Notes under the pieces: model-generated
Database searches by the model: none
What the model was told of the DNA's origin: nothing
What the model saw: the letters and a program-made list of their open reading frames with translations, nothing else
Shown: piece by piece, positions 8,200 to 37,639 of the stretch
Position numbering within the stretch: the first letter of the stretch is position 1
Layout: each line of letters begins with the position of its first letter
Assembly (NCBI GenBank): GCA_913056215.1
Contig: CAJXMN010000017.1
Span: 1 to 38,784 of the forward strand
Direction of reading: 5' to 3'
Source of the DNA: an uncultured Flavobacteriales bacterium
GTDB lineage: Bacteria; Bacteroidota; Bacteroidia; Flavobacteriales_D; Crocinitomicaceae
DNA length: 38,784 nt
Program-made: the position numbers and the translations under genes

Positions 8200-8206
8200 T
8201 GCGGTG

Positions 8207-8446: not shown

Positions 8447-8454
8447 TATCTTCG
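8447..8454 (+). promoter_or_regulatory. Possible -7 box (TATCTTCG) upstream of wecB
   Basis: TATCTTCG fits a TAnnTT(T/C)G box and ends 16 bases before the wecB ATG. A TTG -33 element is not evident. Confidence 0.3.
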
Positions 8455-8470
8455 TTGCAAAGATTGAAAT

Positions 8471-9616: not shown

Positions 9617-9621
9617 TAGAT

Positions 9622-10896
9622 ATGATTACCATTTTCTCAGATTATATCACAAAACGGTTACTCTACACGTTAAGATTAATTTTTGACGATCGTGGGATTG
9701 ATTTTAGAGTCTTGAATGACCCCGATGAATTTAGACGGGCTCAATCGCCAAAATTGGTTTACTCTACCTATCCATTTGATGAAAAAACACTGGTCTTGGA
9801 GCCCTCTGAATTACTGTTTCAGGAAAATATTCGAAACTATGACATTGATCAGACCGATTGGGGTGGTGAGCGTTGCCTGTTACTCGATGGTAAGCTGGAT
9901 CCTCTGGCGAGTATTTTTTATGTCGTTTCTATGTACGAAGAATATTGTTCGGATGTCAGTGACGAACACGATCGCTTTCCCGCATCAGAAAGTTTGCTAT
10001 ATCGATTTGGATGGCTAGATACCCTCATTGTCGAAAGATGGTCTGAAAAACTTATCGATCGGATTGAATCTTTTTATAATTGCAGTTTAAATCGTCAAAA
10101 GATCGGTTTTAATGTGATACCAACTTTTGATATAGACAATGCTTTTGCATACAAACTGAAGGAAGGTTGGCGTAAATGGTTGAGCATTACTCGTGATTTG
10201 ATTCGTTTGGATCGTGAGCGTTTACAGGAAAGAAGTCAAGTACTGAAGGGGATAAAACGTGACCCTTACGATACATTTAGCTACATGCTGTCGCTGAAGG
10301 AAAGCGGTTATGATATTCATCTATTTTGGTTGTTGGGGAACTATGCTACATATGATAGAAATATTAGCTCTGATCATCCGATGCATCGCTCAATCATTGC
10401 TGAAATGACGCAAAGCTTGAAGGTTGGTTTGCACCCCAGTTATAGATCAAATGACAGTCCAGACATTCTCAAGGAAGAAAAGGAACGACTCGAATCGATA
10501 ACGGAGCAATCAATAAAGACGACGCGACAACATTTTTTAAAATTGATTCTACCGTTGACCTATGAGCGTCTAGTGAAAAGAGGATTTACAGATGATTATT
10601 CGCTGGGGTTTGCTGACCATACTGGATTTCGGGCGGGAATTGCCCGTCCTTTTAATTGGTATAACCTGAAAAGGGATCAGGTTTCGGAATTACGACTGCA
10701 TCCTTTCGCGTATATGGATGGAACGTTGAACGAGTATATGCATTTATCCATACCTGAAGCATGCACAAAAGTACATTTGTTGCGAAGTGAAGTAGAAAAA
10801 TTTGGGGGCGATTTCATAATGATCTGGCACAATGAAACTATAGGGGATAAGGGTAAATGGAAAGGATGGAGAAAAGTCCTTGAGTGTGGATTGTAA
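9622..10896 (+). CDS. Polysaccharide-deacetylase-like protein (paralogue 1)
   Basis: A 424-residue protein with no signal peptide or membrane segment. The C-terminal two-thirds resembles the divergent deacetylases found in Bacteroidetes glycan loci: an Asp pair in TFDIDN (Asp170, Asp172), GLHPSYRS (His271), GFADHTGFRAG and IMIWHNE (His403). The N-terminal part (about 1-160) contains YEEYCSDVSDEHDRFPASES, a block also present in the paralogue at 20765-22141. The classic NodB motif (TFDD with HxxxH) is altered, so deacetylation of a nucleotide or lipid-linked N-acetyl sugar is inferred and not shown. It sits between wecB and a GSCFA gene, which suggests editing of acyl groups on a ManNAc-type sugar or glycan. 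Confidence 0.75.
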   Translation: MITIFSDYITKRLLYTLRLIFDDRGIDFRVLNDPDEFRRAQSPKLVYSTYPFDEKTLVLEPSELLFQENIRNYDIDQTDWGGERCLLLDGKLDPLASIFYVVSMYEEYCSDVSDEHDRFPASESLLYRFGWLDTLIVERWSEKLIDRIESFYNCSLNRQKIGFNVIPTFDIDNAFAYKLKEGWRKWLSITRDLIRLDRERLQERSQVLKGIKRDPYDTFSYMLSLKESGYDIHLFWLLGNYATYDRNISSDHPMHRSIIAEMTQSLKVGLHPSYRSNDSPDILKEEKERLESITEQSIKTTRQHFLKLILPLTYERLVKRGFTDDYSLGFADHTGFRAGIARPFNWYNLKRDQVSELRLHPFAYMDGTLNEYMHLSIPEACTKVHLLRSEVEKFGGDFIMIWHNETIGDKGKWKGWRKVLECGL

Positions 10897-10906
10897 GCAA
10901 TGTGAT

Positions 10907-11839: not shown

Positions 11840-11942
11840 CTCTGTGCATCTATATTAAATCTGTACCTGACCTCCACAATTTATCATTATCGAAACAATA
11901 AAAAAAATCGGGTTAAGTGTCGTGAAAGAACTATGCGTTGCA

Positions 11943-19448: not shown

Positions 19449-20738
19449 ATGATGTGGAGTAATTTGAACATAAGGTCCGAGTTTGTGAAATCCGTTATGG
19501 TGCTCACTTCTGGAACTGTTATAGCGCAGATTGCTAGTTATGCTGTCACACCAATCATTACTCGTCTTTTTACGACCGAAGATTTTGGTGAATTTGGTGT
19601 TTTTATGCGTGTGGTTGCTTTTTTAACAGCGATAGGTACTGCGCGATATGAGTTGACGATTCCTTTGCCCAAACTTCACCAACATGCGTTTCTGCTATTT
19701 CGCCTATCATTAAAAATCGCATTGATCACTACAGGTGTATCCTTACTCGCTGGATTAGCAGTATGGAGCTTTTACAGTTCTTCTGTAGAAATGTTGGCGA
19801 TCGTATTGCTTTTGAGTGCAACGACTTTTTTCATGATATTTAAAAATATCGGGACGAATTGGGCGATACGCAACAAGGTTTTTCGCAGAATTTCCGCGGT
19901 GAATATTACGACATCCGCAGCTACAAATACCTTTAAGCTCGCTGCTGGATTCTGGGGCTGGGGAGCATTTGGTCTAATTTGTGCTACTTTTGTCGGTACC
20001 ACGATTGGTGTCTTTTGGTTTGTCAAAGATTTTTTTAGTTCTAAACGAAATTTTAAAGTACTGCAGTCTCCACGAAAAATGCGGTGGCTAAGTCATCATT
20101 ATCGCGAGTTTCCTCGGGTCAACTTACCACATACCCTTATCGATACTACACGGGAACTTGGAATTGCTTTTTTTCTGACATACTACCTTTCTACTGCTAC
20201 ATTTGGGGCGTATGACTTATCTTTTAAAATGTTGAAAATCCCGTTACTATTGATAGGTACATCCATTAGTCAAGTCTTATTTCAAAAAGCATCAGAAAAA
20301 TTTGCTGATAGATCGGCTTTGTACCCACTTTTACGACGAGTTGTCATTATTCTGCTGGCGTTGTCGATAGTGCCGTTTGGCGTCGTTTTTTTCGCAGGTA
20401 CACCGTTGTTTGCATTCGTTTTTGGAAGCGAATGGGAGTTCTCTGGCACGATTGCAGAAGCGCTGGCACCCTGGTTGATGATGAACTTTGTAGCTTCTAC
20501 TATATCATTAATTCCTTCAGTGATCCAAGAGTTGAAATGGTTTTTCTGGGTCGGAGTAGCAACTTCGATTATTCAGCTTTCACTGTTTGGCTTTTTTGAT
20601 GTGATTGCCCAAATGTTTGATTATTCAGCCATTGAATTGTTCGAAAGAATCAGTTGGATCATGACTGTGTTTTTTATTATTGTGATTATATGGGAGTTGC
20701 GCTTAATCAAACGCTCTGATGAGAAACGAGCGCTATAA
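19449..20738 (+). CDS. Polysaccharide flippase, Wzx-like (copy 1)
   Basis: Integral membrane protein of the oligosaccharide flippase family that moves lipid-linked sugar units across the inner membrane. The 429 residues hold about 12 predicted hydrophobic segments, opening with SGTVIAQIASYAVTPIITRL and FGEFGVFMRVVAFLTAIGTA, a family-typical start. Conserved positions shared with the copy at 25267-26562 include RLFTTEDFGEF versus RIYSPNEMGIF and the stretch RWLSHHYREFP versus RWVFKRYRHFP. It is transcribed alone, behind its own promoter, and converges on the deacetylase-like gene with only 26 bases between stops. Substrate cannot be predicted from sequence. Confidence 0.85.
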   Translation: MMWSNLNIRSEFVKSVMVLTSGTVIAQIASYAVTPIITRLFTTEDFGEFGVFMRVVAFLTAIGTARYELTIPLPKLHQHAFLLFRLSLKIALITTGVSLLAGLAVWSFYSSSVEMLAIVLLLSATTFFMIFKNIGTNWAIRNKVFRRISAVNITTSAATNTFKLAAGFWGWGAFGLICATFVGTTIGVFWFVKDFFSSKRNFKVLQSPRKMRWLSHHYREFPRVNLPHTLIDTTRELGIAFFLTYYLSTATFGAYDLSFKMLKIPLLLIGTSISQVLFQKASEKFADRSALYPLLRRVVIILLALSIVPFGVVFFAGTPLFAFVFGSEWEFSGTIAEALAPWLMMNFVASTISLIPSVIQELKWFFWVGVATSIIQLSLFGFFDVIAQMFDYSAIELFERISWIMTVFFIIVIIWELRLIKRSDEKRAL

Positions 20739-20764: not shown

Positions 20765-22141
20765 TTAAGATTGTTTAAAATGTTGAGAACTTCTTGCGAT
20801 GATTTCGACGAAATCCTCGTAAGATGGTCCTATCTTCCTCCAATGTGGATGATGAATGTTATTATTGTGCCATAAAAACACTAATTCTCCTTCGTATTTG
20901 CGTACTTGATGAGTGAGTGTCTTTAGCTTGCTCTTCATGGTTTTTACCTTCTGGGTTTGATGAACTAAAGCCACGTCCATCAAAATAAGCGGACGTTCAA
21001 TGAGTTGAAGCTGTCTTCGTTCGACAATGTCGAAAAAGGGATAGGGATAGCATATTCCTGCTCTAAAACCAATATGTTTTGTATAACCTATGGAGCTATC
21101 GTATTTCATTTGATCTTGCTCCCAGGATCGCAAAGTATATGGGAGATTTATTCTCAAGTAATGGTGACGCCCTTCTACTATTTTTTGATTACTTGCATTT
21201 TCAAGTCGTTTTTTTTCTTCAGAGAAGAAGGACTGTTTATTTTTAACGCGATAAGAGGGATGAATACCTACAATATGATTTTTGTTCTGAATACTTTGAA
21301 TAGCTTTTAAAGTGTGAGGATGATTAATGGAATAACGAAAGTCCTCTTCACCTTTTTTTCCAGGAATAAAATAAAAGTGTGAGATTAAATTGTATTGTTC
21401 AGACACTTTCATAAATCGTTCAAAAGTCCAGCTGTCATCATTTTTAGGATTAACAGCAACCTGAACCCCTTTTTTAAAAGAGCGAAAAAATTCTTTTATG
21501 CTGCGTCTTCTGATTAAGTCTGCTCCAAGAATACGTAATTGTTTGAAAAACGGAAAAGCTCGTGTAATTTCGTCAACATCGTGTGTAATGAGCGGTTCAT
21601 AGTGGCGATTATATGAGATCGTATTACAGTTCCATTGACTCAAAAGGGATCTAAAAAATTCGATATATTCATTCACGATCGGTCGTTCGTGAAATTGTTC
21701 CCTAACTGCAAGTGCCGAGCTATCTGGAAACCGATCGTGTTCATCTCTATCATCACTGATCGTCTCCTCCCATCTAGTTAACATAAAAAAAGCGCTGGCG
21801 ATCAAATCAGCTGATAATATATATGTTTTATCCTGATGAAGATAATCATCAGTGCCAAAAATAGTGCGGATGGAAAAGGTTACTCCATTAAATCCGAGGG
21901 AGCACTCCTTGGTCTTCTCAGGAACTATATATTGATTAATAATGGGTTTAGTTTCATTTAGCCTGCACCAAAAGTGATCTTCAATCTTCAGTGAATTCCC
22001 GTGCTCATCTGAAATAAGGTAAAAGGGTTCGTTGTGTTCTGTGAAGGAGTATTGGACATCATTAAAATAGGCAAAAAGAACGCGGAAGGTATATTTGCGT
22101 TCAACGAGAAATGAAGAGGGAAGTGTAATATTGATTTTCAT
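20765..22141 (-). CDS. Polysaccharide-deacetylase-like protein (paralogue 2)
   Basis: 458 residues, clearly homologous to the protein at 9622-10896. Matching blocks are DEHDRFPDSSALAVREQF (versus DEHDRFPASESLL), ITHDVDE (His187, Asp188, Asp190), VGIHPSYRVKN (His294), KERLEN/KKRLEN-type helix, IGFRAGICYPY and VFLWHNNNIHH (His425). The Asp/His set could form a metal site like that of NodB deacetylases, but the canonical motif is altered. No signal peptide, so it probably acts in the cytoplasm on an activated sugar or lipid-linked glycan. It is the last gene of the MaoC/CitE/CitE/AAC(3) operon, and its start overlaps the AAC(3) stop by 4 bases. A removal of N-acetyl to free an amine for another acyl group is an attractive but untested role. 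Confidence 0.75.
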   Translation of the reverse strand: MKINITLPSSFLVERKYTFRVLFAYFNDVQYSFTEHNEPFYLISDEHGNSLKIEDHFWCRLNETKPIINQYIVPEKTKECSLGFNGVTFSIRTIFGTDDYLHQDKTYILSADLIASAFFMLTRWEETISDDRDEHDRFPDSSALAVREQFHERPIVNEYIEFFRSLLSQWNCNTISYNRHYEPLITHDVDEITRAFPFFKQLRILGADLIRRRSIKEFFRSFKKGVQVAVNPKNDDSWTFERFMKVSEQYNLISHFYFIPGKKGEEDFRYSINHPHTLKAIQSIQNKNHIVGIHPSYRVKNKQSFFSEEKKRLENASNQKIVEGRHHYLRINLPYTLRSWEQDQMKYDSSIGYTKHIGFRAGICYPYPFFDIVERRQLQLIERPLILMDVALVHQTQKVKTMKSKLKTLTHQVRKYEGELVFLWHNNNIHHPHWRKIGPSYEDFVEIIARSSQHFKQS

Positions 22142-23046
22142 TTGAAATTGATGTTTTCCTGACCTTTCACTTTGCGGCTGTTGATTTTGTAGTAAAAAGC
22201 GCCGAGTGCCTTTTTAAACTTACCTCGGAAAAGATGTTGCAGGATAAATTTGAAATATGAAGTGTCTGAAAAAGACCAACTCAATCTACAGCTGATGCAA
22301 CCAGGATCATCACAGAGTATGGAGGTAGGATCTTCTTTTAAGTGTTTTTTTTCAATAGCGTATGTTTGTTCTAAGTCAGTAACTTTAAGTCGTGTATTTC
22401 CGATCGGTACATCAGCAAGTACGGCACCTTTTTTTTTGAAGAGTGGCATTAAATTATTGAAACCAAATCCACATCCGCCTACCCAGTTGACTTCGAAAAA
22501 TTGAATTTGACCTTCCTTGTTTTCATAGTAGACTCCTTTTTTAATTTTATCTTGCTCAAAACCCTCTTCACATAAGACGATATGTGTAGTTCCAACACCT
22601 GGTACTTTTTCTTCGGGACCTATTTTTATATTTTTACCTTTCTTATTGACCATCTCCTTAAGCACGCCATAAGCGAAGTCGCCTTTCTTGTGATTTTCTG
22701 TTAATTTTCGAGCTTCTCGCCCAATAGCAATAAATTTTTGTATTGGATGCTTGCTTCGATAGGAATCTGGATGCTTAATCATTGTGTTGGCAACCGCACC
22801 AGCGTAGGAAGGAGTATCGTCATTTACTACCTTTCGTTGATTTTCACTTTTAAACTGAGTTTCAACAAAGGCGTCGGAAACGAGTGTACCTTCTTCTCCT
22901 ACCACATCTAAAAATGCATCAATCAGTGTTTGAGGTCCTCCAGAGATTTTACCAATAGACTTCAATGATACTTTAAGATTCAGCAGGTCTCCCTTTTCAA
23001 TACCGGCTTCCTTAATGGCCTGAATAAGCGTTTCTTTTTCAATCAT
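22138..23046 (-). CDS. AAC(3)-family N-acyltransferase (probable amino-sugar acyltransferase)
   Basis: 302 residues of the antibiotic_NAT fold: MIEKETLIQAIKEAGIEKGD, then GKISGGPQTLIDAFLDVVGEEGTLV, the RSKHPIQKFIAIG block (family RSxHPxxSxxAxG) and a VPGVGTTHIVLCEE block in place of the usual GxGxxxxTxxHxxE. AAC(3) proteins transfer acyl groups from CoA to amines; in a glycan locus, amino-sugar acylation is more plausible than drug resistance. Odd feature: a C-terminal CX4CX2C cluster (Cys245, Cys250, Cys253), plus VGGCGFGFN, not expected in drug-modifying AAC(3). The gene overlaps the upstream CitE-like gene by 4 bases (ATGA) and the downstream deacetylase-like gene by 4 bases, so its function is tied to theirs. 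Confidence 0.82.
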   Translation of the reverse strand: MIEKETLIQAIKEAGIEKGDLLNLKVSLKSIGKISGGPQTLIDAFLDVVGEEGTLVSDAFVETQFKSENQRKVVNDDTPSYAGAVANTMIKHPDSYRSKHPIQKFIAIGREARKLTENHKKGDFAYGVLKEMVNKKGKNIKIGPEEKVPGVGTTHIVLCEEGFEQDKIKKGVYYENKEGQIQFFEVNWVGGCGFGFNNLMPLFKKKGAVLADVPIGNTRLKVTDLEQTYAIEKKHLKEDPTSILCDDPGCISCRLSWSFSDTSYFKFILQHLFRGKFKKALGAFYYKINSRKVKGQENINFK

Positions 23047-23945
23047 AGATGATCACTTTTTTTTGAAGCATTGATGCGCTTTACCTTATTCATAACATTT
23101 TGAGCGCGCTTTTCCATGGGTGGACCGATAAGTTTCCCATCCATAAGTGCTACACCTAAACCTCGTTCTTTACTCTCTTCTATGGCTTTGATAATTCGCT
23201 GAGCTTCTTTAATCTCTTCTTCAGATGGGGTAAATGCCTGATTGGCAATAGCTATTTGAGTGGGATGAATGATCAGTGTACCAGAAAAACCAAGTTCACG
23301 TGCTAATTTTACCTCCTTTTCAAAACCTTCCAAGTTGTGGATATCCAGAAAAGGGGTGTCAATAGCATCGATTTTTGCAGTTCTTGCAGCCATGACAACT
23401 AAAGAACGCGGAACAAGTAAACTGGCGCCATGTTCCTTATGGAGACCATCGAGATCTGTTAGATAATCTTCACCGCCCAGAACAAGTGCGTTGACACGTT
23501 CTGATGCTGTGGCAATATCATAGGCTTTTATCATCGCCGAGCCGGTTTCGATTAACGGACAAATTTTAAATTTCCCAGGCGTAAAACCTTTATCGATTTC
23601 TAATTGTGATAATAATTTATCGAAATAAATGATATCCTTTTCGTCGCGTACTTTGGTAAACATAATACCGTCTGTTCCTTCTTGTAAACTTGCTTCGAGA
23701 TCGTCGAAGAGCATCCCAGAATCAATAGGGTTAACACGGATATAAACTTGTTGTGAATACGACTTCTTACCAAGATAATGTGCGATATTATCACGAGCTC
23801 GTTCTTTATCCTTCTGAGGAACAGAGTCTTCTAAATCGAGTATTAAGGCATCTGAAGAAAAACTTCGCGCTTTCTCTAAGAATTTTGTCATGTAGCCCGG
23901 CACAAAAGTCATTGTGCGCAAACTTTTTTTTACGGTATTACTCAT
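23043..23945 (-). CDS. CitE-like HpcH/HpaI-family lyase (copy B, 300 residues)
   Basis: Member of the HpcH/HpaI aldolase / citrate lyase beta family, Mg-dependent enzymes that split or form 3-hydroxyacyl-CoA esters (malyl-, methylmalyl-, citramalyl-CoA). Visible family blocks: FVPGYMTKFLEKA, DALILDLEDSVPQKDKERAR, VYIRVN, MFTKVRD, PLIETGSAM with Glu133, LVLGGEDYLTDLD with Asp160 (likely Mg ligands, 27 apart), and GFSGTLIIHPTQIAIANQAF. These features support an active lyase/synthase, but acyl-CoA specificity cannot be read. The start overlaps the end of the sister CitE-like gene by 8 bases and the stop overlaps AAC(3) by 4 bases. Confidence 0.87.
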   Translation of the reverse strand: MSNTVKKSLRTMTFVPGYMTKFLEKARSFSSDALILDLEDSVPQKDKERARDNIAHYLGKKSYSQQVYIRVNPIDSGMLFDDLEASLQEGTDGIMFTKVRDEKDIIYFDKLLSQLEIDKGFTPGKFKICPLIETGSAMIKAYDIATASERVNALVLGGEDYLTDLDGLHKEHGASLLVPRSLVVMAARTAKIDAIDTPFLDIHNLEGFEKEVKLARELGFSGTLIIHPTQIAIANQAFTPSEEEIKEAQRIIKAIEESKERGLGVALMDGKLIGPPMEKRAQNVMNKVKRINASKKSDHL

Positions 23946-24744
23946 GGTTTAAAATATTAAGTGCTTTTTTGATTTTTGGAGGAGTTGTCAGGACCCCGTC
24001 ATCATGCATGGTATACCCTGAATCTTTTTCTTGAGCATGTGCCAAAATCATTTTTGCCCAGCGAACCTCAGCCTTACTGGCTTTAAAAATGGAATTGATG
24101 TGATCTATTTGATCTGGATGAATAGAAAACTTACCTACAAACCCCATCGATCGCGCTTTATGACATTCGTCTCTGTAAGTATTGAAATTAGATCGCTCTG
24201 TAGCGATAACATCAATCGGAAAGGTGTTATTTGCATAGCACGATAAAACGAATTCTGACTGAACATTTTTCCTCAGTTCCAAAAGGCTCTCATTCTCATA
24301 AGGAATATGTTGAAACATATCTTCAAGTCCGAGTCCTGCATACGTTATTTCAGGTGCCTTTAATATAGCATCGGCTTGTTTGAGATCACAAAATTGTTCA
24401 AAGAGTGGCAGGAGAGAAACTGATTGTTGGAGTGCTTCTCGCAACAGCGTAATGGTATCGGGTTTTCCTATTTTAGGAATTACGATGCCCGAAATTTGTT
24501 CTGAAATGGTTTGAAGTAATTCCACGTCTTTTTCAAAATGTTCTGTTTCCCTTGCATTGATGCGAACGTAACAATTTGGTATGTCCGATGCAAGCTGCTT
24601 GACGTTTTGACGCGCTTTTTCTTTATTTTCATTCGATACAGCATCTTCTAGATCTAGAATGAAGGCATCCGCTTGGAGTTGAGGACATTTCTCCAGAAAA
24701 TGATCATTATTTGCAGGGATAAAGTGAAAGCTTTTAATCATCAT
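23938..24744 (-). CDS. CitE-like HpcH/HpaI-family lyase (copy A, 268 residues)
   Basis: A second, divergent CitE-like protein next to copy B. It keeps FHFIPANNDHFLEK, DAFILDLEDAVSNENKEKAR, CYVRINARE, IVIPKI, Glu116 (in LPLFEQFCDL) and Asp142 (in GLGLEDMF), 26 apart, and GFVGKFSIHPDQIDHINSIF. It differs from copy B in length (about 30 residues shorter) and in the metal-site surroundings (LFEQF against LIETG). It may work as a heteromer with copy B or act on a different acyl-CoA. Overlaps the MaoC gene by 11 bases and copy B by 8 bases; translation is likely coupled. Confidence 0.84.
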   Translation of the reverse strand: MMIKSFHFIPANNDHFLEKCPQLQADAFILDLEDAVSNENKEKARQNVKQLASDIPNCYVRINARETEHFEKDVELLQTISEQISGIVIPKIGKPDTITLLREALQQSVSLLPLFEQFCDLKQADAILKAPEITYAGLGLEDMFQHIPYENESLLELRKNVQSEFVLSCYANNTFPIDVIATERSNFNTYRDECHKARSMGFVGKFSIHPDQIDHINSIFKASKAEVRWAKMILAHAQEKDSGYTMHDDGVLTTPPKIKKALNILNHE

Positions 24745-25204
24745 TGCGCTTTCTTTTCTTGATCAAGACCGAACGTTCAAAACTGAGTACGTCCTCATCG
24801 TTCTGATTCGAAGCATAAGTGATAACGGAAACAATCCCCCGGTCATCTTTAGAGGAAGATTCGCGTTTATCCAGGATTTCAGTGCGGGCATAGATGGTAT
24901 CGCCAATGAAGGTAGGTCTTAAGTGTTTGACTGATTCATACCCTAAATTTGCTACAGCTTTTCCACTAATATCTGCCACTGTTAAACCGACTGCCAAAGA
25001 AAACACCAACGTTCCAACAACAAGAATTTTTCCGTGCTGTTGTTGTTCAGCATAATTAATATCTAAATGAACAGGGTGATGGTTCATCGTTAACAATGAA
25101 AAAAAGTTGTTGTCCGACTCAAAAATGGTTTTACTGCTCGCGTGTTGAATGGTTTCTCCAGCGATAAAATCTTCATAAAAATTTCCAAATGATGGATTGA
25201 TCAT
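24734..25204 (-). CDS. MaoC-family acyl-CoA hydratase (mesaconyl-/itaconyl-CoA hydratase-like)
   Basis: 156-residue single hot-dog domain. The block DNNFFSLLTMNHHPVHLD (from residue 31, with Asn41 and His46) and the later VANLGYESVKHLRPTFIGDT and ILDKRESSSKDDRGIVSV are, as I recall the family, typical of MaoC hydratases acting on mesaconyl-CoA, itaconyl-CoA or related unsaturated dicarboxylic thioesters; the family normally has Asn where other hydratase-2 enzymes have the catalytic Asp. No FAS or PhaJ context. It is the first gene of a five-gene operon behind a TATTTTTG box at 25238-25231, and overlaps the CitE-like gene behind it by 11 bases. Expected reaction: reversible hydration of an enoyl-CoA to a 3-hydroxyacyl-CoA that CitE could cleave, or the reverse. 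Confidence 0.8.
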   Translation of the reverse strand: MINPSFGNFYEDFIAGETIQHASSKTIFESDNNFFSLLTMNHHPVHLDINYAEQQQHGKILVVGTLVFSLAVGLTVADISGKAVANLGYESVKHLRPTFIGDTIYARTEILDKRESSSKDDRGIVSVITYASNQNDEDVLSFERSVLIKKRKRNDD

Positions 25205-25266: not shown

Positions 25267-26562
25267 TTAGGGATTTGATACGTTTTCAATTTGTTTAAGG
25301 ATAATCCGACGGGCAAAGATATAAGTCATTAAGTACACGATGCTCATGGCAACAGCGTATACGCTTACAGCATAAAATGCATTTAAGTTGAAATAATAAG
25401 TGGCTCCGAAACTTACCAACACAAATAAAACTCGAAGTACATTCGTAAAGAGAGCAATTGAATGTTTTTCAAAAACCAGAAATACGCGACTCACTGGTGT
25501 GAACACTAATCTGAAAAATGCCAAGAAAGCTAGGATTTGACTAAAAACACCCGCATCGTACCATTCTTCCCCAAAAAAGAATGAAAATAATATCGGACTA
25601 AAAACAATGAGGATTAAAGTGGGAGCGATACCTAAAAGAACCAATTTTCGAACTAATTGATTCGAAAGTTTTAATAAGGATTTGGGGTCAGATTTACCGT
25701 TAGCTGCAGCTTCAGCATAAAATACATCACCTATGGCAGTTCCTATTAGTACAACAGGAATGTTGACTATTAGGTTTGCTAAACCATATTGACCGACTAC
25801 AGCAGTGCTGAAAATTGATGTTAGAAAAAATACTGGTAGCTCCAACCCACCTCGGGAAAGTAATTGTGAGGGCAATGTAAGTAGAGGGAAATGACGATAA
25901 CGCTTAAAAACCCAACGGATTTTTCTCAAAGAAATATTTTTCAATAATCGAGGGTCATCGGATAGAAGTTTGCGAAATAAAGTCAGTGATCCAGCACACT
26001 TCCCAATTACTTGACCGATGATAAGTCCCGCGGAACCAAACTTGATCAAGCCTAAAACTATTTGGGATAAATTTTGCCCCAAACCTTGAAATAATTTGGT
26101 GATCGAAATTTTTTTAAAGTTTTTTGTCCGCAATGCCCATTGTAATAGTATTGTATAAAGACCAGCTAATAGGAGTCCTACAGGGATTAAAAACACTAAA
26201 TTTCCCAGTTTTTCAGCATTGAACAATCCAAGAATTTGTTCTTGTAGAATTAATAAGATAAGTGTAGACAGAATGCTGGTAATGAATAGTATGAGGATGC
26301 TAAGCGCGATTGTGTTAATACTGATGATCTTATTCTTAGCTATTGGTATACTATATTCATACTTTAGAGAAGCAGAAATCAATAAGATATTGAGAATAGA
26401 TGTGTATAAGAAGAATATCCCCATCTCATTCGGTGAATAAATTCGAGTGATTAAAGGAGAAAATATAACATTTAGAAACTGAGCGAAAGCTGTTCCTAGG
26501 GACATCCATGCAACGTTTTTAGAGAAATCGTTTTTGAATATGTGCTTGAACTTTGAAATCAC
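25267..26562 (-). CDS. Polysaccharide flippase, Wzx-like (copy 2)
   Basis: 431-residue integral membrane protein of the same flippase family as the product of 19449-20738. It opens with NVAWMSLGTAFAQFLNVIFS and the motif PLITRIYSPNEMGIFFLY, and has about 12 hydrophobic segments, for example TIALSILILFITSILSTLI and LVFLIPVGLLLAGLYTILLQ. An exact TAGATTTG box lies 16 bases upstream of the start. It is divergent from the Wzz-like gene and lies upstream of the MaoC operon on the same strand (62 bases apart). With copy 1, the locus has two flippases, which suggests two repeat units or a paralogous sugar substrate. Confidence 0.85.
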   Translation of the reverse strand: MISKFKHIFKNDFSKNVAWMSLGTAFAQFLNVIFSPLITRIYSPNEMGIFFLYTSILNILLISASLKYEYSIPIAKNKIISINTIALSILILFITSILSTLILLILQEQILGLFNAEKLGNLVFLIPVGLLLAGLYTILLQWALRTKNFKKISITKLFQGLGQNLSQIVLGLIKFGSAGLIIGQVIGKCAGSLTLFRKLLSDDPRLLKNISLRKIRWVFKRYRHFPLLTLPSQLLSRGGLELPVFFLTSIFSTAVVGQYGLANLIVNIPVVLIGTAIGDVFYAEAAANGKSDPKSLLKLSNQLVRKLVLLGIAPTLILIVFSPILFSFFFGEEWYDAGVFSQILAFLAFFRLVFTPVSRVFLVFEKHSIALFTNVLRVLFVLVSFGATYYFNLNAFYAVSVYAVAMSIVYLMTYIFARRIILKQIENVSNP

Positions 26563-26715: not shown

Positions 26716-27666
26716 ATGACTGATATAAATGGTAATAACTCAGTTTCATTAACTGATTTTATAAAATTATCTATTTTAAACTGGAAGCTATTTGTTGGTT
26801 TTTCGTTGCTTTTTGGGGTTCTGTTTTTTCTATACGCCTATTTTTCTGTAAAAGAGTATCAATCGGAGGCCGTTATTTCTATGAAATTAGATAAAAAGAT
26901 TGAAACTAGTTATGGAGTGTTTAAGCCGATGAACACGAGAACTACGGACTATGCAAAATTATTTCGAAATCTTGAGATTATAGAAAAAACCATTTTCGCT
27001 ACGGATTATGATATCGCGCCTGCCGACTTTAATTCTAATCTGAACCTGACTATTTCAGAGGCTAATGAAACATCGATCAAAATTAGCTTAAAATCTGAAC
27101 ATGAAGGTGTTGGAAAACTTTTGGCTGAGCATATAAGTAATTTTAAATCACTCGTTAATGAACAATTTAACGAAGAAGCTTATTCACGTTACAGTTACGA
27201 TCTCACAAAGAAATTAGAATTTGCTGGACAAGAGATGGAACGTCTTGAAAATGAAATCCAACGGATGGAAGAGAAATTCACGCCTTCATCGTTTAAAAAC
27301 CTATCAAAGGAGCAGTTGAAACAAATTCGAAATATGGGGTTTAGTGTTGATGTTTTGGACTATTTTGGTATTCAACGAAGAAATTATGACGAAAAACTGT
27401 TCAATATGAAAACGACACATCTTAAAAGAGGTGTAGAAAAGGAAATGTTGACACGTCGTATAAGTGATTATAAGAACTCTTCTTCTGATGAGCTATTCAA
27501 AAAATACAATTTTGTAAATCAGTTTGTCGTCCTGTTTAGTGCACCTACCGAACCGAGTTCACCAATAAATGTCGACCTTAAGAAAAGAGTTCTTTTAGGC
27601 GTCTTTTTAGGCTTGTTTATTGGTTTGCTTATTGTCTTTTTTAGGGCTATTGGAAATAAAGAATAG
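26716..27666 (+). CDS. Wzz-like polysaccharide co-polymerase (chain-length regulator)
   Basis: 316 residues with the classic co-polymerase layout: one membrane span near the N-terminus (about 22-42, LFVGFSLLFGVLFFLYAYF), a large periplasmic domain with a coiled coil (about 155-190, EFAGQEMERLENEIQRMEEK), and a second span at the C-terminus (about 291-310, RVLLGVFLGLFIGLLIVFF). A Pro-rich segment before the second span (APTEPSSPINVDL) matches the usual Wzz pattern. No cytoplasmic tyrosine kinase domain is fused. It is the first gene of the plus-strand assembly operon and probably sets polymer length for the Wzy-type protein behind it. Confidence 0.83.
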   Translation: MTDINGNNSVSLTDFIKLSILNWKLFVGFSLLFGVLFFLYAYFSVKEYQSEAVISMKLDKKIETSYGVFKPMNTRTTDYAKLFRNLEIIEKTIFATDYDIAPADFNSNLNLTISEANETSIKISLKSEHEGVGKLLAEHISNFKSLVNEQFNEEAYSRYSYDLTKKLEFAGQEMERLENEIQRMEEKFTPSSFKNLSKEQLKQIRNMGFSVDVLDYFGIQRRNYDEKLFNMKTTHLKRGVEKEMLTRRISDYKNSSSDELFKKYNFVNQFVVLFSAPTEPSSPINVDLKKRVLLGVFLGLFIGLLIVFFRAIGNKE

Positions 27667-27686
27667 TATTTCCGAACATTAATTTT

Positions 27687-28976
27687 ATGACCTTCAATTT
27701 AACTAAAACTGGTGATTTTATTCGATCAAACAAGCTGATCATTGCTTTATTGTTTTTTAGGGGTCTTCTCGATTTAATTTACCTTATTTATTTGGGACCC
27801 TTCTATGGTTATGCTGGTTTTGTTATAGAAATTAACTACTTAAAATACATTCTATCATATGTTACGTTAATTATCGTTTTTAACCTTGTCCCCTTTGAGA
27901 ATGAAAAGATTTCAGAGGTAATAATTCAATTTTTCTTTGTCACAGTATATCTACCTTTGACTTCTTACTTTGCCCTTGCAGGAGGTAGTTTGAGCTGGTT
28001 TATCATTTTTACGATATTCTGGTGCATCATTTTTATGATCAATCGGTTAGACCTGAATTGGAAGTTACTCACTCCAAAAACAAACTATTCTGAACTTAAG
28101 GTCAAGGGAACCGTTGTAATTTTTGTTGTTCTGGTTTTTAGTTTAATTTTTTCTTTAGTGGATTTAAAATTTAATTTTAGTCTGCTTGATGTCTATGAGT
28201 TGCGCAAGGAAAACCCAGTTGGTGCTATACCACTATCGGGGTATATCGTTAACTGGACAGGGAAAATATTTCTGCCTTTTTTATTGATTGTTTCTATCGT
28301 TAAATTCAAAAGATATATCAATTGGTTCTCCATTGCGATGATTGCCTTAATTGTGCTTTTATTCACTATTACAGGTCATAAGAGCTACTTATTTATGATT
28401 CCAGCAATCTATGGAACGATATGGTTGTTACGAATGAAAAACTTTTTCTTTGGACTCATAATGGTTTTCATTGTAATTTCTGTTGTTGGTCTTCTACTTT
28501 TTTTTCTGATAGATAATACCTTAGTGCTAAGCTTATTTGTGAGAAGAACTTTGTTTATGCCTGCTCAAATTTCGTTTTATTATTATGATTTTTTTAATGG
28601 GAATCCCATTTATTTGTCAAATAGTATTTTAAAGTCGTTTTTTGAGTACCCCTATGCATTAGAGCCACCATACTTAATCAGTAAGCATTATTTTAACAAG
28701 CCAGAGATGTCTTCCAATAATGGAATCGTCGCAGATGGGTTTGCTCATTTTGGACTTTTAGGAGCAGTTATTTGGTCAATACTCTTCGCTTTATTGCTAA
28801 AAATTTTAGATATTTTGACTTTTGGAAAAAACAAACTGATATTCTGGACATTAATTTTGTTAGGGGCAAGAGTTTTTTCTGGTGGTAGTTTGTTAACAGG
28901 CCTTTTGTCCCACGGTTTTCTCGTGATTATTTTGATTGCTTATTTTTATCCATCTCAAAAGAAAACAGTTCAATGA
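27687..28976 (+). CDS. Wzy-like oligosaccharide repeat-unit polymerase
   Basis: 429-residue integral membrane protein with about 10-12 hydrophobic segments and very high Phe/Ile/Leu content, typical of Wzy. A polar region between spans contains FFEYPYALEPPYLISKHYFN and SNNGIVADGFAHFGLLGAVI, and the late DGFAHFG segment recalls the conserved end of O-antigen polymerases. It starts 20 bases after the Wzz-like stop and its end overlaps the GT4 gene in an ATGA arrangement. AT content of this gene is visibly above that of the housekeeping genes, as often in O-antigen loci. Polymerase function is inferred from topology and context. Confidence 0.75.
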   Translation: MTFNLTKTGDFIRSNKLIIALLFFRGLLDLIYLIYLGPFYGYAGFVIEINYLKYILSYVTLIIVFNLVPFENEKISEVIIQFFFVTVYLPLTSYFALAGGSLSWFIIFTIFWCIIFMINRLDLNWKLLTPKTNYSELKVKGTVVIFVVLVFSLIFSLVDLKFNFSLLDVYELRKENPVGAIPLSGYIVNWTGKIFLPFLLIVSIVKFKRYINWFSIAMIALIVLLFTITGHKSYLFMIPAIYGTIWLLRMKNFFFGLIMVFIVISVVGLLLFFLIDNTLVLSLFVRRTLFMPAQISFYYYDFFNGNPIYLSNSILKSFFEYPYALEPPYLISKHYFNKPEMSSNNGIVADGFAHFGLLGAVIWSILFALLLKILDILTFGKNKLIFWTLILLGARVFSGGSLLTGLLSHGFLVIILIAYFYPSQKKTVQ

Positions 28977-30073
28977 AAATTTGTCATTTGACAACAGTTC
29001 ACCCTCGAAATGATATTAGGGTATTTTATAAAATGTGTAAGTCTATTGCTGAAATCAACGTTGAAATCTCATTGATAGTCGCAGATGGAAAGGGTGATGA
29101 TACCGTAGATCAGGTGAATATTATTGACGTTGGATCCTACCAATCAAGTCGATTCAAGCGTTTGTTCGTTGCGCAAAGGAAAATGTTGCAAACAGCCTTA
29201 GAACTTAATGCTGATTGTTATCAGCTGCATGATCCAGAGTTGTTGAAAATTGCACCAAAGCTGAAACGAAGAGGAAAGAAAGTTATTTACGATAGTCATG
29301 AGGATGTCCCAAAGCAAATACTTTATAAAAAGTGGTTAGGGCCATTATTTATGCGGAAAATCATTTCAAAAGTTTACGATTGGTACGAGAAAAATACTGT
29401 TCTAAAATTAGATGGTCTTATTTCAGTAATCGAGGAGATAACTGAAAAGTTTAAATGTCCAAATATGATAACGATAAAAAACTATCCAATAGTTGAAGAG
29501 TATCAAGCGCATGTCAAAATCAATGACAATCGAAAGAAAAAGATCATTTATGTTGGTAGTATCTCTGAGGAGCGTGGTATAATGGACTACTTAGATGCAA
29601 TGAAAAAACTAAAAAGTGATTTTACATTGGTTCTCGTTGGTAGTTTTTCTTCAATACAATTGAAAGAAAAGTGTCTAAATCATCCTGCTTGGAGAGAGGT
29701 GGAGTACCTTGGTTTCCAACCCATGGAAGAGGTAGTTAAACTGTTAGGCGAATGTTTTATGGGCTTATGCGTTTTGCATCCTGAGCAAAATTATTTGACG
29801 AGCCTACCAACAAAAGGTTTCGAGTATGCTTCAGCTCAATTACCCATGATTATGAGTAACTTTGATTATTGGCGGGATTATTTCGAAGGTACATGCATCT
29901 TCGTACAACCTAAAAATAGCGATGGTATTTTAAAGGCAATCGAAACATTAATTAATGATCATTCGAAATACGAAGCGATTCAAAAAACTCAATTCAATCG
30001 TTCGAAAATATATTCCTGGGAAAATGAAGCAAAGAAACTCAAAGGATTTTATGATAAGATAGTGTCCAGTTGA
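28973..30073 (+). CDS. Glycosyltransferase family 4-like protein
   Basis: 366-residue GT-B-fold retaining glycosyltransferase. It begins MKICHLTTVHPRNDIRVFYK (a frequent opening of bacterial GT4), has DCYQLHDPELLKIAPKLKRR and KVIYDSHEDVP in the N-terminal domain, and the C-terminal donor domain starts at IIYVGSISEERGI (about 188-200), followed by LPTKGFEYASAQLPMIMSN, the expected donor-binding E-containing region. Donor and acceptor sugars cannot be told. It overlaps the Wzy-like gene by 4 bases and is followed by 95 bases with a promoter-like box before the next gene. Confidence 0.88.
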   Translation: MKICHLTTVHPRNDIRVFYKMCKSIAEINVEISLIVADGKGDDTVDQVNIIDVGSYQSSRFKRLFVAQRKMLQTALELNADCYQLHDPELLKIAPKLKRRGKKVIYDSHEDVPKQILYKKWLGPLFMRKIISKVYDWYEKNTVLKLDGLISVIEEITEKFKCPNMITIKNYPIVEEYQAHVKINDNRKKKIIYVGSISEERGIMDYLDAMKKLKSDFTLVLVGSFSSIQLKEKCLNHPAWREVEYLGFQPMEEVVKLLGECFMGLCVLHPEQNYLTSLPTKGFEYASAQLPMIMSNFDYWRDYFEGTCIFVQPKNSDGILKAIETLINDHSKYEAIQKTQFNRSKIYSWENEAKKLKGFYDKIVSS

Positions 30074-30114
30074 TAAGATATGCCCGTCCCGTTAGCTAAA
30101 TTCGAAGAATAAAG

Positions 30115-30122
30115 TAACTTTG
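30115..30122 (+). promoter_or_regulatory. Possible -7 box (TAACTTTG) upstream of the O-antigen ligase-like gene
   Basis: TAACTTTG is an exact TAnnTTTG match 46 bases before the ATG at 30169, inside a 95-base gap. The -33 region has TTAG, so this is a partial match. Confidence 0.35.
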
Positions 30123-30168
30123 CGTAGTAAGCAGTTTTGAAGTGTTATAATTTTAGTGTTAATCGTCA

Positions 30169-31668
30169 ATGGAATTTTATAAAAAAATGAAACAGCTGCA
30201 GCCATTAGACTGGGCTTTACTTTTAAACGCTGTTTCTATTATGTTTCTAAAAGCTGTTCCCTATTTTTTAACTTTACTTCTCATTGTTTTGATTGTTGAA
30301 TTGATTAGAGGTAATGTTGCTTGGGGAAATACATCTGTAAAAATATTAATTATAATTGGAACCCCTATTTTATTAGGAGCGGTTGGTCTTATTTATACTG
30401 AGAATTTAGATAAAGGGTTGGAAGAATGTTCTCGCTTACTGCCCTTTCTGATTTTCCCCATTGTTTTCAATTTTTATAGACCAAAGAACTACTCTTTTTT
30501 TAAGAAAGCGGCACTTAGTCTCTTTGCACTTGCTTTAGTTGTGCGATTAGTTGTTAACTTCTACGAATCAATTATTGATTATCAAGCAACTGGTGAGATG
30601 CATCATTTGTTCTACACATATTTTGTAGCTGATATTAATATCGTGTCCATATTTATTTTTTTTGCTATACTTTACATATTAGAGTATTTCATATCGAATA
30701 ATTGGAGTGGAAGGCGAATCGTGACACCCATTATACTATTAGCTATGCTATCTTTCAGTATGATATTTCTTCAAGGTAGAATTGTTCTATTGGGGTTTTG
30801 GTTATCCCTCATTATCTTATTTTGGATTTATAGAAAGTTTTCGAAGAAGTGGATGTTACTAGCCGTGTTGGGTGTTACTATTGGTGCCTTCTTTATACCC
30901 AATTTTAATTCTAGATTTAGCAACATTAATAAGAATTTTAAAGAACAACCACATCTTCAAAAGGATATGGAAAAAGCAGAAGGAGGTGAGGTTCAAGAAG
31001 AAAATATGATCGTGAAGGCGATGAAAAGGCATAGTACCGTTTTGATGTTGATATTATTTGGAGCTATTTTGATAGTGGTCCTTTTTTTTACGCCCTTTCA
31101 CCGATTTGCACCTCATTTAATTGTTGTATATCTAATATTGTCGTTGATTGGAGTTGTCTTAAGTGCTGATAATGAAGATTTTCATACGGAAGCTAAGCGT
31201 TTAGTTGCTAAACAAAAACGAGGAGAACTCTTTGAAGAAGGGCTTTCAACTTCTGAAAAATATCGACTCAACGCTCTTTTGACTTCTATAAGTTTGATTC
31301 AACAGCGTCCTTGGTTAGGTTATGGAACAGGAGACTGGCGAGATGCGCTCACCGTAGAGTATTATAAGCGAAAATTGAAACAAAACTTTATAGAACAAAC
31401 GGCCCCTCATAATCAGTATTTTAGGACTTGGCTGCGTCATGGCATCTTTGGTTTCCTCGCTTTTCTTGCTTATTTGTTTTGGCTCGTTAAGGGAACAGTT
31501 AATCATTCCATGACTGGAAGATATGCTTTTGTATTATGCATAGTATTGAGCGCAGTAGGCTACGACATTTTTGATGTTGGAGGATCAATTCCTTTCATTG
31601 CTTATTTTTCATGTTTATTTTTCATAATACCTCCTTCTCATATTAACGAAAATCAAAAGCTTCAATGA
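30169..31668 (+). CDS. O-antigen ligase/polymerase-family membrane protein
   Basis: 499-residue multi-span protein. An internal EECSRLLPFLIFPIVF, then SLIQQRPWLGYGTGDWRDAL and APHNQYFRTWLRHGIFGFLA are hallmarks of the Wzy_C/WaaL-like family; the loop before the HNQY block carries the conserved Arg and His used for transfer in such enzymes. Odd feature: between FNSRFSNINKNF and the LNALLTS block there are two extra hydrophobic segments (LMLILFGAILIVVLFF and LIVVYLILSLIGVVL) flanked by charged stretches, where most relatives have one uninterrupted periplasmic loop. It may be a ligase joining polymer to lipid A or an acceptor, or a second polymerase. Context (Wzz, Wzy-like, two glycosyltransferases) supports a role in assembly. 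Confidence 0.78.
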   Translation: MEFYKKMKQLQPLDWALLLNAVSIMFLKAVPYFLTLLLIVLIVELIRGNVAWGNTSVKILIIIGTPILLGAVGLIYTENLDKGLEECSRLLPFLIFPIVFNFYRPKNYSFFKKAALSLFALALVVRLVVNFYESIIDYQATGEMHHLFYTYFVADINIVSIFIFFAILYILEYFISNNWSGRRIVTPIILLAMLSFSMIFLQGRIVLLGFWLSLIILFWIYRKFSKKWMLLAVLGVTIGAFFIPNFNSRFSNINKNFKEQPHLQKDMEKAEGGEVQEENMIVKAMKRHSTVLMLILFGAILIVVLFFTPFHRFAPHLIVVYLILSLIGVVLSADNEDFHTEAKRLVAKQKRGELFEEGLSTSEKYRLNALLTSISLIQQRPWLGYGTGDWRDALTVEYYKRKLKQNFIEQTAPHNQYFRTWLRHGIFGFLAFLAYLFWLVKGTVNHSMTGRYAFVLCIVLSAVGYDIFDVGGSIPFIAYFSCLFFIIPPSHINENQKLQ

Positions 31669-31750
31669 TGCTGTCTTTTCCCTGAATGCTGTTCTTAATA
31701 TTAACCTTTAAAATGAATTATTATTCTGAACCCATCATCTGCTAATTACT

Positions 31751-31758
31751 TATATTTG
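31751..31758 (+). promoter_or_regulatory. Possible -7 box (TATATTTG) upstream of the GT2 gene
   Basis: TATATTTG is an exact match to TAnnTTTG in the 190-base gap before the GT2 gene, but the start codon is 100 bases downstream, so it would give a long leader. No -33 TTTG at normal distance. Nothing else is recognised in this gap. Confidence 0.38.
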
Positions 31759-31858
31759 TAGAACACTTTAATCATAGTGTATTCAGTTTTACTGGTTGCC
31801 CCCTTAAAATGCAACAAAAAGAAGAAGTTGGCTGATTAAATTATTTATTTCGTTAAGC

Positions 31859-32878
31859 ATGAAAAATAAGTTGTCCGTTGTCATACCCTGTAAGAATGAA
31901 GTGAAGCATATCGAAGAATGTATACGTGCTATTTACCTGTGTGATTTACCCACCGATATAGTAATTTCCGTACTAGTGGTGGATGGAATGAGTGATGATG
32001 GAACACGAGAAAAAATAAAAGCACTTAAGAGGGAGTATCCGAGTTTATTCTTACTCAATAACAAAATGGAATTAACTCCTTACGCATTTAATATTGGTGT
32101 TAACGCTATTGAATTCGATTACCTTCAAATAATAGGAGCACGCCACATTGTTTCTACTAATTATCTGGATGAATGTCTGTACTATTTAAAGAATAATCAG
32201 AACATTTGGTGCGCTGGAGGACGGATTCTTAACACTTACACCAATAATACATCTCGAATAATTGCGAGTGCCATGGCAACTTCTTTTGGCATGGGTGTCG
32301 GAAATTTTCGGACACTTCAAAAGACGTGTTTTACTGATACGGTTACAAGTCCCATGTATCCGAAATTTGTATTTGAAAAAATTGGTTATTTTGATGAACG
32401 ACTGATTAGAAATCAAGATGACGATTTTAATTTCCGTGTTCATAGAGCTGGAGGTAAAATTTTATTTATCCATGATATTTTTTTAAAGTACTATGTTCGT
32501 GCAAGTTTGAAAAATTTGCGTAGACAATTCTTTCAATACGGATATTGGAAAGTTTTCGTCAATAAAAAACACAAATCAATTACGACCTTAAGGCAGCTAG
32601 TGCCATTGTTCTTTGTAATATTTTTAGTCTTACTACCATTTTCTTTACTTGTTCCTCCGATATTTTTTTATATATTTTCACCAATATTCGTCGCTTATTT
32701 ACTGCTCGTATTTGTAACTGGCTTTAAACTTATTAAAGAATCTAAAGATTTGTTGACTGGTTTGCTCGTTTATCCAACTATGCATGTCACCTACGGACTC
32801 GGATATATTTATGGGGTTATTGATTTTATCCTGTTAAATAAAACGCCGTCGGATAAACAGAAAAGGTTGTCTAGATAA
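31859..32878 (+). CDS. Glycosyltransferase family 2 protein with C-terminal membrane segments
   Basis: 339-residue inverting GT-A glycosyltransferase. It opens with LSVVIPCKNEVKHIEECIRA and has VVDGMSDDGTREKI (nucleotide-binding Asp), AGGRILNTY, and RNQDDDFNFRVHRAGG (the ED-like catalytic block, here DDDF). The C-terminal part has hydrophobic segments LVPLFFVIFLVLLPFSLLVP and IFSPIFVAYLLLVFV, as in ExoA-like enzymes that act at the membrane. Last gene of the plus-strand assembly block. Its stop codon is only 6 bases from the stop of the convergent hydrolase gene, so no terminator separates them. Confidence 0.9.
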   Translation: MKNKLSVVIPCKNEVKHIEECIRAIYLCDLPTDIVISVLVVDGMSDDGTREKIKALKREYPSLFLLNNKMELTPYAFNIGVNAIEFDYLQIIGARHIVSTNYLDECLYYLKNNQNIWCAGGRILNTYTNNTSRIIASAMATSFGMGVGNFRTLQKTCFTDTVTSPMYPKFVFEKIGYFDERLIRNQDDDFNFRVHRAGGKILFIHDIFLKYYVRASLKNLRRQFFQYGYWKVFVNKKHKSITTLRQLVPLFFVIFLVLLPFSLLVPPIFFYIFSPIFVAYLLLVFVTGFKLIKESKDLLTGLLVYPTMHVTYGLGYIYGVIDFILLNKTPSDKQKRLSR

Positions 32879-36379: not shown

Positions 36380-36409
36380 TTGAATAATGTTTGGGAAACA
36401 TTACATTTG
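36380..36409 (+). promoter_or_regulatory. Promoter (TTG - N19 - TACATTTG) of the aminotransferase/sugar transferase operon
   Basis: TTG at 36380-36382 and TACATTTG at 36402-36409, with 19 bases between, are the best -33/-7 pair in the window. The box overlaps a possible upstream ATG at 36387, which fixes the true start at ATG 36426 with a leader of about 14 bases. Confidence 0.62.
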
Positions 36410-36425
36410 TAAAAATTATAAATAT

Positions 36426-37628: not shown

Positions 37629-37639
37629 ATGAGAAAGGG

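Follow-up and report, generated by a model that had tools for sequence, protein, structure and literature searches.

We analyzed contig CAJXMN010000017.1 of an uncultured Flavobacteriales bacterium; the entire contig (38,784 bases) is referred to here as the window. Within a surface polysaccharide locus, the window carries an operon that is predicted to encode a MaoC-type hydratase, two CitE-like proteins (CitE1 and CitE2), an acyltransferase with an AAC(3) fold, and a VimE/CE4-type sugar deacetylase. The results presented here suggested that this operon probably decorates an amino sugar of the surface polysaccharide with an unusual acyl group. In this proposal, we infer every reaction, the order of the steps, the sugar, and the acyl group. 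The five minus-strand open reading frames (ORFs) at positions 20765 to 25204 overlap their neighbors by 11, 8, 4, and 4 bases, which confirmed the observation from which an initial annotation of the window had started, and each ORF product scored above the cut-off of some Pfam family. The glycan decoration proposed in that annotation was partly supported. Our analysis added the breadth and mobility of the MaoC-CitE module, a flippase gene that probably belongs to the unit, the exchange of the acyltransferase and of the amine source, and the missing lid acid of the CitE proteins.

A MaoC-CitE module is found in glycan loci of diverse bacteria

A search of the GTDB species set with three MaoC sequences yielded 168 relatives, and the best 80 loci were analyzed. 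The MaoC proteins of these 80 loci were 63 to 77% identical to the window MaoC. The loci were mostly from Bacteroidota, with others from Bacillota (five loci), Balneolota, Ignavibacteriota, Cloacimonadota, Omnitrophota, and Verrucomicrobiota. Among the best 80 of 168, the module was found in Lachnospiraceae and in Lishizhenia tianjinensis; the Lishizhenia locus (L133) was also recovered by a search anchored on CitE1. Gelidibacter sediminis is another culturable carrier. The median gap between the MaoC and CitE genes was -4 bases, and it was below 30 bases in 71 of 74 cases.

The gene content of the loci was compared with that of 36 control stretches, which were selected manually from 11 genomes at round coordinates and scanned with the same profiles; the profiles were built from the module loci themselves. 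CitE was matched in 79 of 80 loci and in none of the control stretches. The corresponding counts were 62/80 and 1/36 for the DegT aminotransferase, 34/80 and 0/36 for the largest Wzx family, 25/80 and 1/36 for RmlA, and 15/80 and 0/36 for WxcM. An LbH acyltransferase, the profile of which may also catch O-acetyltransferases, was matched in 73 loci versus two control stretches. When LbH and AAC(3) acyltransferases were counted together, the numbers were 76/80 and 2/36, and AAC(3) itself was present in 5/80 loci. The gene set of one locus, L121, was RmlA, RmlB, WxcM, WxcM, MaoC, CitE, LbH, and DegT. A stricter count, which was limited to gene clusters no more than seven genes from MaoC, placed an acyltransferase in 67 of 78 rows (61 LbH and 6 AAC(3)); the 78 rows include the window and locus L072, and the cluster names LbH, ATPg, AT10, KAS III, and AMP ligase rest on few scanned members or on inspection by eye.

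In a replication sample of 395 genomes of the phylum, 11 had a match at 1e-35, one of which was the window's own. Besides the window's own, there were seven strong matches, three of which repeated loci of the 80. All seven had MaoC, a CitE protein with the glycine lid described below, and LbH, and six had DegT. The other three matches, from one genus, had a MaoC-CitE pair and no module glycan genes in the hit range. These comparisons supported the idea that MaoC-CitE is a conserved module whose place is in glycan loci, alongside genes for acyltransferases and amino sugars. The glycan setting described in the initial annotation was therefore seen in other genomes, as judged by the acyltransferase and DegT counts. 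As for its five-gene order, the core of MaoC-CitE plus an acyltransferase was conserved, but the exact order was present in the window alone. The AAC(3) and deacetylase genes were not regular members of the set, since few loci had AAC(3) and a VimE-type deacetylase accompanied the module only in the window.

A census of flanking genes used 217 genes (2 of 219 were left out, and 26 were skipped for length). Polysaccharide deacetylase family PF22537 accounted for 2 of the 108 genes in one half of this census. A LUD-domain protein, of which one member was scanned, was located near the module in L093, L101, L124, L138, and L163, and there were five LUD matches in the flank census. Among the papers listed from the open-licence literature, judged by titles and the beginnings of abstracts, we found none that places MaoC and CitE in glycan loci; a listed paper on Arcobacter proposes a central-metabolism cluster and not a glycan cluster.

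The cassette is associated with different acyltransferases

A block of 1,329 bp, 93.9% identical, is common to loci L117 and L127. It begins where MaoC starts and covers CitE except for about the last 27 bp; the two loci match over another 305 bp elsewhere. In L117, an LbH gene is located before MaoC, whereas in L127, an AAC(3) gene is located after CitE. A shared block beside different acyltransferase genes suggested that the cassette is portable. In a tree of MaoC plus CitE (the same 78 rows), the AAC(3) label required six changes for six rows, and at least five of these were forced by starred branches, although this was a quick tree in which the window and L072 have long branches and the placement of the window is unsure. 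As far as these sequence comparisons go, they indicated that MaoC-CitE is a portable cassette with an exchangeable acyltransferase.

The window is one of six loci of the rare AAC(3) variant. DegT was found within seven genes of MaoC in none of the six AAC(3) loci versus 48 of 61 LbH loci; when the unassigned cluster AT10 was counted together with DegT, the numbers were 0/6 and 52/61 (P = 5e-5). Such an absence would be expected if the AAC(3) loci obtain the amine from another source. The scanned flank genes of the other AAC(3) loci encoded mainly glycosyltransferases, Wzy_C, PGA_cap, and ATP-grasp proteins. In L107, a 397-amino-acid (aa) protein (positions 11329 to 12522) with no Pfam or NCBIfam match is encoded between CitE and AAC(3).

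Most loci encode a CitE protein with glycine at the lid position

In the CitE cluster, the equivalents of the Mg-site Glu/Asp, Arg76, and Asp42/Glu44/Asp45 were kept in all 87 rows, including window CitE1 and CitE2. The equivalent of the lid residue Asp299 is Gly in window CitE2 and Thr in window CitE1. Eighty loci had a usable CitE (78 of the 80 that were fetched, L072, and the window), and a Gly-lid CitE was present in 78 of them: 55 loci had Gly only, 19 had Gly and Glu, 3 had two Gly proteins, and the window had Gly and Thr. The exceptions were L135, in which CitE is cut off, and L152, which has Thr. In three MaoC-CitE pairs outside glycan loci, all from one genus, the lid Asp was kept (3/3).

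We considered whether the Gly lid is exclusive to glycan loci and rejected this idea, because large CitE proteins of Flavobacteriales share the Gly and two of these are located outside glycan loci. The two are CitE-MaoC fusions (L073, positions 1981 to 3972, and L076, positions 6787 to 8805), which means that Gly-lid chemistry is not exclusive to glycans. Judging from the sequences, the Gly lid marks a group of CitE proteins that works with MaoC and not glycan loci alone.

The C-terminal lid Asp of malyl-CoA lyases is reported to handle the proton of the acetyl-CoA carbon, and, apart from the malyl-CoA thioesterase group, which has Glu, it is described as conserved in the superfamily (PMC3832036). 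The module proteins resemble malyl-CoA and citramalyl-CoA lyases in family match and in the Mg-site, Asp-Glu-Asp, and Arg residues, but the lid Asp of those enzymes is Gly in a module CitE of nearly every locus. Because of this replacement, textbook lyase chemistry cannot be assumed, and the suggestion in the initial annotation that the CitE proteins make malyl-, methylmalyl-, or citramalyl-CoA in this way is unproven. Nor can family membership alone fix the substrate, since a related mycobacterial CitE-like enzyme is reported to accept citramalyl-CoA, 3-hydroxy-3-methylglutaryl-CoA (HMG-CoA), and malyl-CoA (PMC6689899). The best NCBIfam match of window CitE1 was RipC/Ccl (104.4, cut-off of 375), and that of window CitE2 was CitE (231.3, cut-off of 443.4), followed by RipC/Ccl (158.9); all of these scores are below the cut-offs.

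The window MaoC resembled mesaconyl- and itaconyl-CoA hydratases, in agreement with the initial annotation. Its best PDB match was 8hgn, a beta-methylmalyl-CoA dehydratase (1.8e-33), and its best NCBIfam match was RipB/Ich, with 146.9 bits and a curated cut-off of 340. Mesaconyl-CoA hydratase and beta-methylmalyl-CoA dehydratase are thus its best PDB relatives, but the window MaoC is a single domain of 156 aa. It has Asn at what we take to be the place of the hydratase-2 Asp, and the same Asn is shared with the second domain of these two relatives. The idea that Asn at this catalytic position is special to the glycan module was dropped, as it is also found in non-glycan pairs and in mesaconyl-CoA hydratases. 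A RipB/Ich family search of 198 genomes of the class at 1e-20 returned only the window's own match, and thus there was no Bacteroidia Ich group for comparison.

Our best guess is that the acyl group may be a C4 to C6 dicarboxylic acid, either hydroxylated or unsaturated, for example malyl, methylmalyl/mesaconyl, or citramalyl. Amino sugars of marine bacteria are reported to carry acid groups, among them N-malyl and 2-hydroxyglutaryl (PMC3210612). A more speculative idea, which we regard as rather unlikely, is that the Gly-lid CitE is a new type of enzyme that, lacking the lid acid, would not deprotonate acetyl-CoA. It would use a nucleophile for which no base is needed, such as an enolate formed when malonyl- or methylmalonyl-CoA is decarboxylated; MaoC would then dehydrate the irreversibly formed aldol product, yielding an undescribed glycan acyl group. 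A hint of such a decarboxylative reaction is that a gene for an MmdA-kind carboxyltransferase adjoins the module in four of the five Bacillota loci versus 0 of the 75 others (a single one of these four was compared with NCBIfam).

Acyltransferase and amine source

The structural model of the window AAC(3)-like protein had a predicted local distance difference test (pLDDT) score of 85.3, and its best Foldseek match was AAC-IIIb (2.4e-17). The protein scored 77.6 against the NCBIfam AAC_3 family (aminoglycoside resistance), which has a cut-off of 270. The Antibiotic_NAT motif is described as TxPhiHPhiAE, with a catalytic His and a Glu (PMC8956665). H155 of the window protein aligns with His183 of BA2930, and this His was present in all six module AAC(3) proteins. 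A second motif, LCx4Cx2C, was found in 6/6 module AAC(3) proteins, 2/2 haloarchaeal plasmid proteins, and 0/31 ordinary AAC(3)-like rows (28 distinct genes). When AAC(3) was used as the search anchor, only the window's own gene was recovered from the 395 phylum genomes at 1e-15, and the AAC(3) matches in relatives were distant. The haloarchaeal plasmid genes with the Cx4Cx2C motif (L070, positions 8989 to 9834, and L071, positions 8968 to 9768) are located near genes for sulfatases and PIG-L deacetylases. Haloarchaeal plasmid matches were rejected as module carriers, since two of the three examined adjoin sulfatase genes and not the module.

The only NCBIfam match of the operon deacetylase-like protein was VimE (6.3e-55), and its score of 186.5 was below the cut-off of 440. 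In the family search, the VimE family was present in 93 of 99 genomes, and the cut-off was reached in none of the 99. Residues D188, D190, H294, H327, D348, R360, and H425, which we take to be the metal-site residues of CE4-type deacetylases, were invariant in 32 rows (29 distinct genes) and are all present in the operon protein. Its model (pLDDT of 78.5) had polysaccharide and CE4-type deacetylases as the best Foldseek matches (9.5e-09), with a template modeling score by query of only 0.34. We therefore have moderate confidence that the modeled protein has a CE4-type fold.

As for the amine, an aminotransferase is present in most loci; in the window, there is a VimE/CE4-type deacetylase, and DegT is 11 kb away. 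In the Wbp/Vim pathway, VimE is proposed to deacetylate a 2,3-diacetamido uronate at C2 (PMC7468200). The window resembles the pathway of Porphyromonas gingivalis in that a CE4-type deacetylase is proposed to expose the amine of a 2,3-diamino uronate, which an N-acyltransferase then fills (PMC7468200). It differs in that the transferase has an AAC(3) fold and is not of the type of VimA, the aminoacyl transfer protein, a dedicated acyl-CoA cassette is attached, and the deacetylase is below the VimE cut-off. Candidate WbpA, WbpB, WbpD, and WbpE genes cluster on contig C53 of the same genome; their family matches were mostly below equivalog cut-offs, and they were assigned by family type. In two loci from two other Flavobacteriales families (L077, positions 740 to 4443, and L078, positions 6863 to 11735), genes for a VimE-like protein, an AAC(3)-like protein, a 328- to 335-aa protein (no Pfam match in L078), a GNAT-type protein, and a short-chain dehydrogenase/reductase are found in a conserved order. 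The location of the AAC(3)-like gene after the VimE-like gene in these loci is an independent sign of a VimE/AAC(3) partnership. The AAC(3)-like proteins of L077 and L078 do not have the Cys motif.

Proposed pathway and alternatives

We propose that the MaoC and CitE proteins, as a portable acyl-CoA cassette, would produce the acyl donor and that the VimE-type deacetylase would expose the amine of a nucleotide sugar. This amine would receive the acyl group from the AAC(3)-fold enzyme, and the flippase encoded at the head of the operon would help export the finished unit. The likeliest substrate of the deacetylase would be uridine diphosphate (UDP)-2,3-diacetamido-uronate, for which the Wbp-like genes elsewhere in the genome are candidates. 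Anthrose-type operons, for which our literature search found no paper, are similar in that a sugar locus has its own acyl-CoA hydratase and an N-acyltransferase for an amino sugar. The anthrose system uses an enoyl-CoA hydratase and is not known to involve CitE, whereas the MaoC described here has one or two CitE-like partners. The N-malyl O-polysaccharides reported for Pseudoalteromonas rubra and Vibrio vulnificus carry the expected kind of acyl group on 2,3-diamino-2,3-dideoxyglucuronic acid (PMC3210612), but they are acylated at N3 and not at the N2 that VimE is proposed to free.

Several observations weigh against this proposal. With Gly at the lid position in 78/80 loci, the acyl-making step is not standard, and seven distinct large CitE genes (frames of 666 to 1038 aa) in other Flavobacteriales also have the Gly lid. 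Eighteen of the 80 loci had no DegT match, and four had no acyltransferase match. A KAS III-like gene was located near the module in five loci and an AMP-ligase-like gene in four (both named by eye), so other acyl pathways may feed some loci. In all six module AAC(3) proteins, the motif Glu is replaced with a hydrophobic residue, although the window and L107 proteins have a Glu two positions later. The window was the only locus in which the module had a VimE-type gene nearby (blastp, 1e-10), and the 13 scanned flank genes of the other five AAC(3) loci included no deacetylase gene, leaving the amine source in those loci unexplained. We also know of no glycan structure from any carrier of the module.

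The best NCBIfam matches of MaoC, CitE1, and CitE2 (RipB/Ich, RipC/Ccl, and CitE followed by RipC/Ccl, respectively) could point to a catabolic route for itaconate or a different C5 acid, like the Ict-Ich-Ccl pathway. MaoC would hydrate itaconyl-CoA, CitE would split citramalyl-CoA, and the glycan setting would be coincidental. However, all of these scores are far under the curated cut-offs, and no CoA-transferase or ligase (Ict) is among the five operon proteins. Around the related loci, the 25 of 68 and 25 of 104 families listed for the two halves of the 217 flank genes included no such enzyme, and the AMP-ligase-like cluster noted above is near four loci. The related loci are glycan loci, and their lid residue is Gly in 78/80, as opposed to Asp in the three pairs outside glycan loci. 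This made C5-acid catabolism highly improbable, and the initial annotation had also treated it as the weaker alternative. It is likewise unlikely that the glycan is acylated with a common acyl-CoA, such as 3-hydroxybutyryl-CoA produced via MaoC, and that CitE is a thioesterase or accessory protein. The 3-hydroxybutyryl group is reported on several bacterial amino sugars (PMC3210612), and the Glu-lid CitE proteins of 19 loci resemble the malyl-CoA thioesterase group at the lid residue (PMC3832036). Nevertheless, CitE is found in all but one of the 80 loci, where its gene usually overlaps MaoC, and the block shared by L117 and L127 holds both genes; hence, CitE is no bystander.

The remaining alternative concerns the type IX secretion system (T9SS), for which the operon might make a second anchoring (linking) sugar: its VimE-like protein (VimE2) would deacetylate the sugar, and AAC(3) would add a group used by the sortase. 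The genome has 117 matches to T9SS sorting tails, VimE belongs to the linking-sugar pathway (PMC7468200), and genes for VimE-like, AAC(3)-like, and GNAT-type (Acetyltransf_6) proteins are close together in L078 and, by eye, similarly in L077. The published linkers, however, are N-seryl or N-glycyl sugars that are amide-bonded to the C terminus of the protein (PMC7468200). The bond would be made via the amine of the amino acid, and an acyl group made by MaoC and CitE would have no such amine. In addition, a separate core VimE-like gene is present in the same window, and the cassette is also found in Lachnospiraceae, which to our knowledge are not expected to have a T9SS. A second linking sugar is therefore quite unlikely as the product of the operon. 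Given the sorting tails and the presence of the VimE family in 93/99 genomes, positions 8471 to 11839 of the window (2-epimerase, core VimE-like, and GSCFA genes) may be the T9SS linking-sugar locus.

A two-gene acyl-CoA cassette moving between the surface-glycan loci of gut and marine bacteria would explain the acylated amino sugars of some of them. Such sugars can affect how phages, hosts, and antibodies recognize a cell. Within a glycan locus, a MaoC gene next to one for a CitE with an IGPP lid would be a sequence signature for predicting these glycans, and the reaction of a CitE group that does not have a residue thought to be essential is directly testable.

Operon organization and other genes in the window

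The initial annotation placed the operon between two flippase genes and assigned it a promoter box of its own. Genes matching PF13440 are indeed located on both sides, but the upstream one is codirectional with MaoC, and the 62-bp gap between the two contains no terminator-like site. A flippase gene was directly upstream of MaoC in five of six AAC(3)-type loci (window included) versus 0 of 72 others, as counted with module profiles that may miss other kinds of flippase. The short gap and this distribution suggested that the upstream flippase gene probably belongs to the unit, which would then consist of six genes. The gap contains one TAnnTTTG match (25238, minus strand); this motif has 59 matches in the 77,568 bases of both strands, and about 0.05 are expected in the gap. 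No sigma-70-like site was found in the gap, and a separate promoter was not confirmed. Coordinates are listed in Table 1. Outside the operon, the core VimE-like gene adjoins genes for a UDP-N-acetylglucosamine (UDP-GlcNAc) 2-epimerase (8471 to 9616) and a GSCFA protein (10880 to 11839), and the Wzz-like protein of the glycan-assembly group scored 22.7 bits, under its cut-off of 25.5.

Table 1. Features of the window and, where a locus is named, of related loci
Feature	Coordinates	Strand	Basis or remark
Wzx-type flippase, probably first gene of the operon	25267..26562	-	PF13440, 58.1 bits; 62 bp before MaoC
MaoC-type hydratase/dehydratase, RipB/Ich- and mesaconyl-CoA-hydratase-like	24734..25204	-	156 aa; PF01575, 64.5 bits; PF19315, 62.9 bits
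CitE1, second CitE-like protein, with Thr in place of the lid Asp	23938..24744	-	268 aa; PF03328, 80.3 bits
CitE2, the module's CitE-like protein, with Gly in place of the lid Asp (LIGPPM)	23043..23945	-	300 aa; PF03328, 147.6 bits
AAC(3)-fold (Antibiotic_NAT) acyltransferase, LCx4Cx2C motif	22138..23046	-	302 aa; PF02522, 72.6 bits (cut-off 25)
Predicted VimE/CE4-type sugar N-deacetylase, second VimE-like copy of the window	20765..22141	-	458 aa; PF23019/DUF7033, 88.2 bits (cut-off 27)
Second Wzx-type flippase, convergent with the operon	19449..20738	+	PF13440, 56 bits
Glycan-assembly genes: Wzz-like, protein without Pfam match, glycosyltransferase group 1, Wzy_C/O-antigen ligase, glycosyltransferase 2	26716..32878	+	Pfam
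DegT aminotransferase and Bac_transf sugar-phosphate transferase	36387..38227	+	Pfam; about 11 kb from the operon
Core VimE-like gene, outside the operon	9622..10896	+	NCBIfam VimE, 2.8e-52, below cut-off
MmdA-kind carboxyltransferase	L115 8420-9973, L130 8459-9973, L146 11336-12877, L156 10457-12010		Beside the module

Between the glycan-assembly genes and DegT, genes for an AstE/AspA-type deacylase, a RimK-type glutamate ligase, and a RimB-like aspartic peptidase are located in a row (32885 to 35216).

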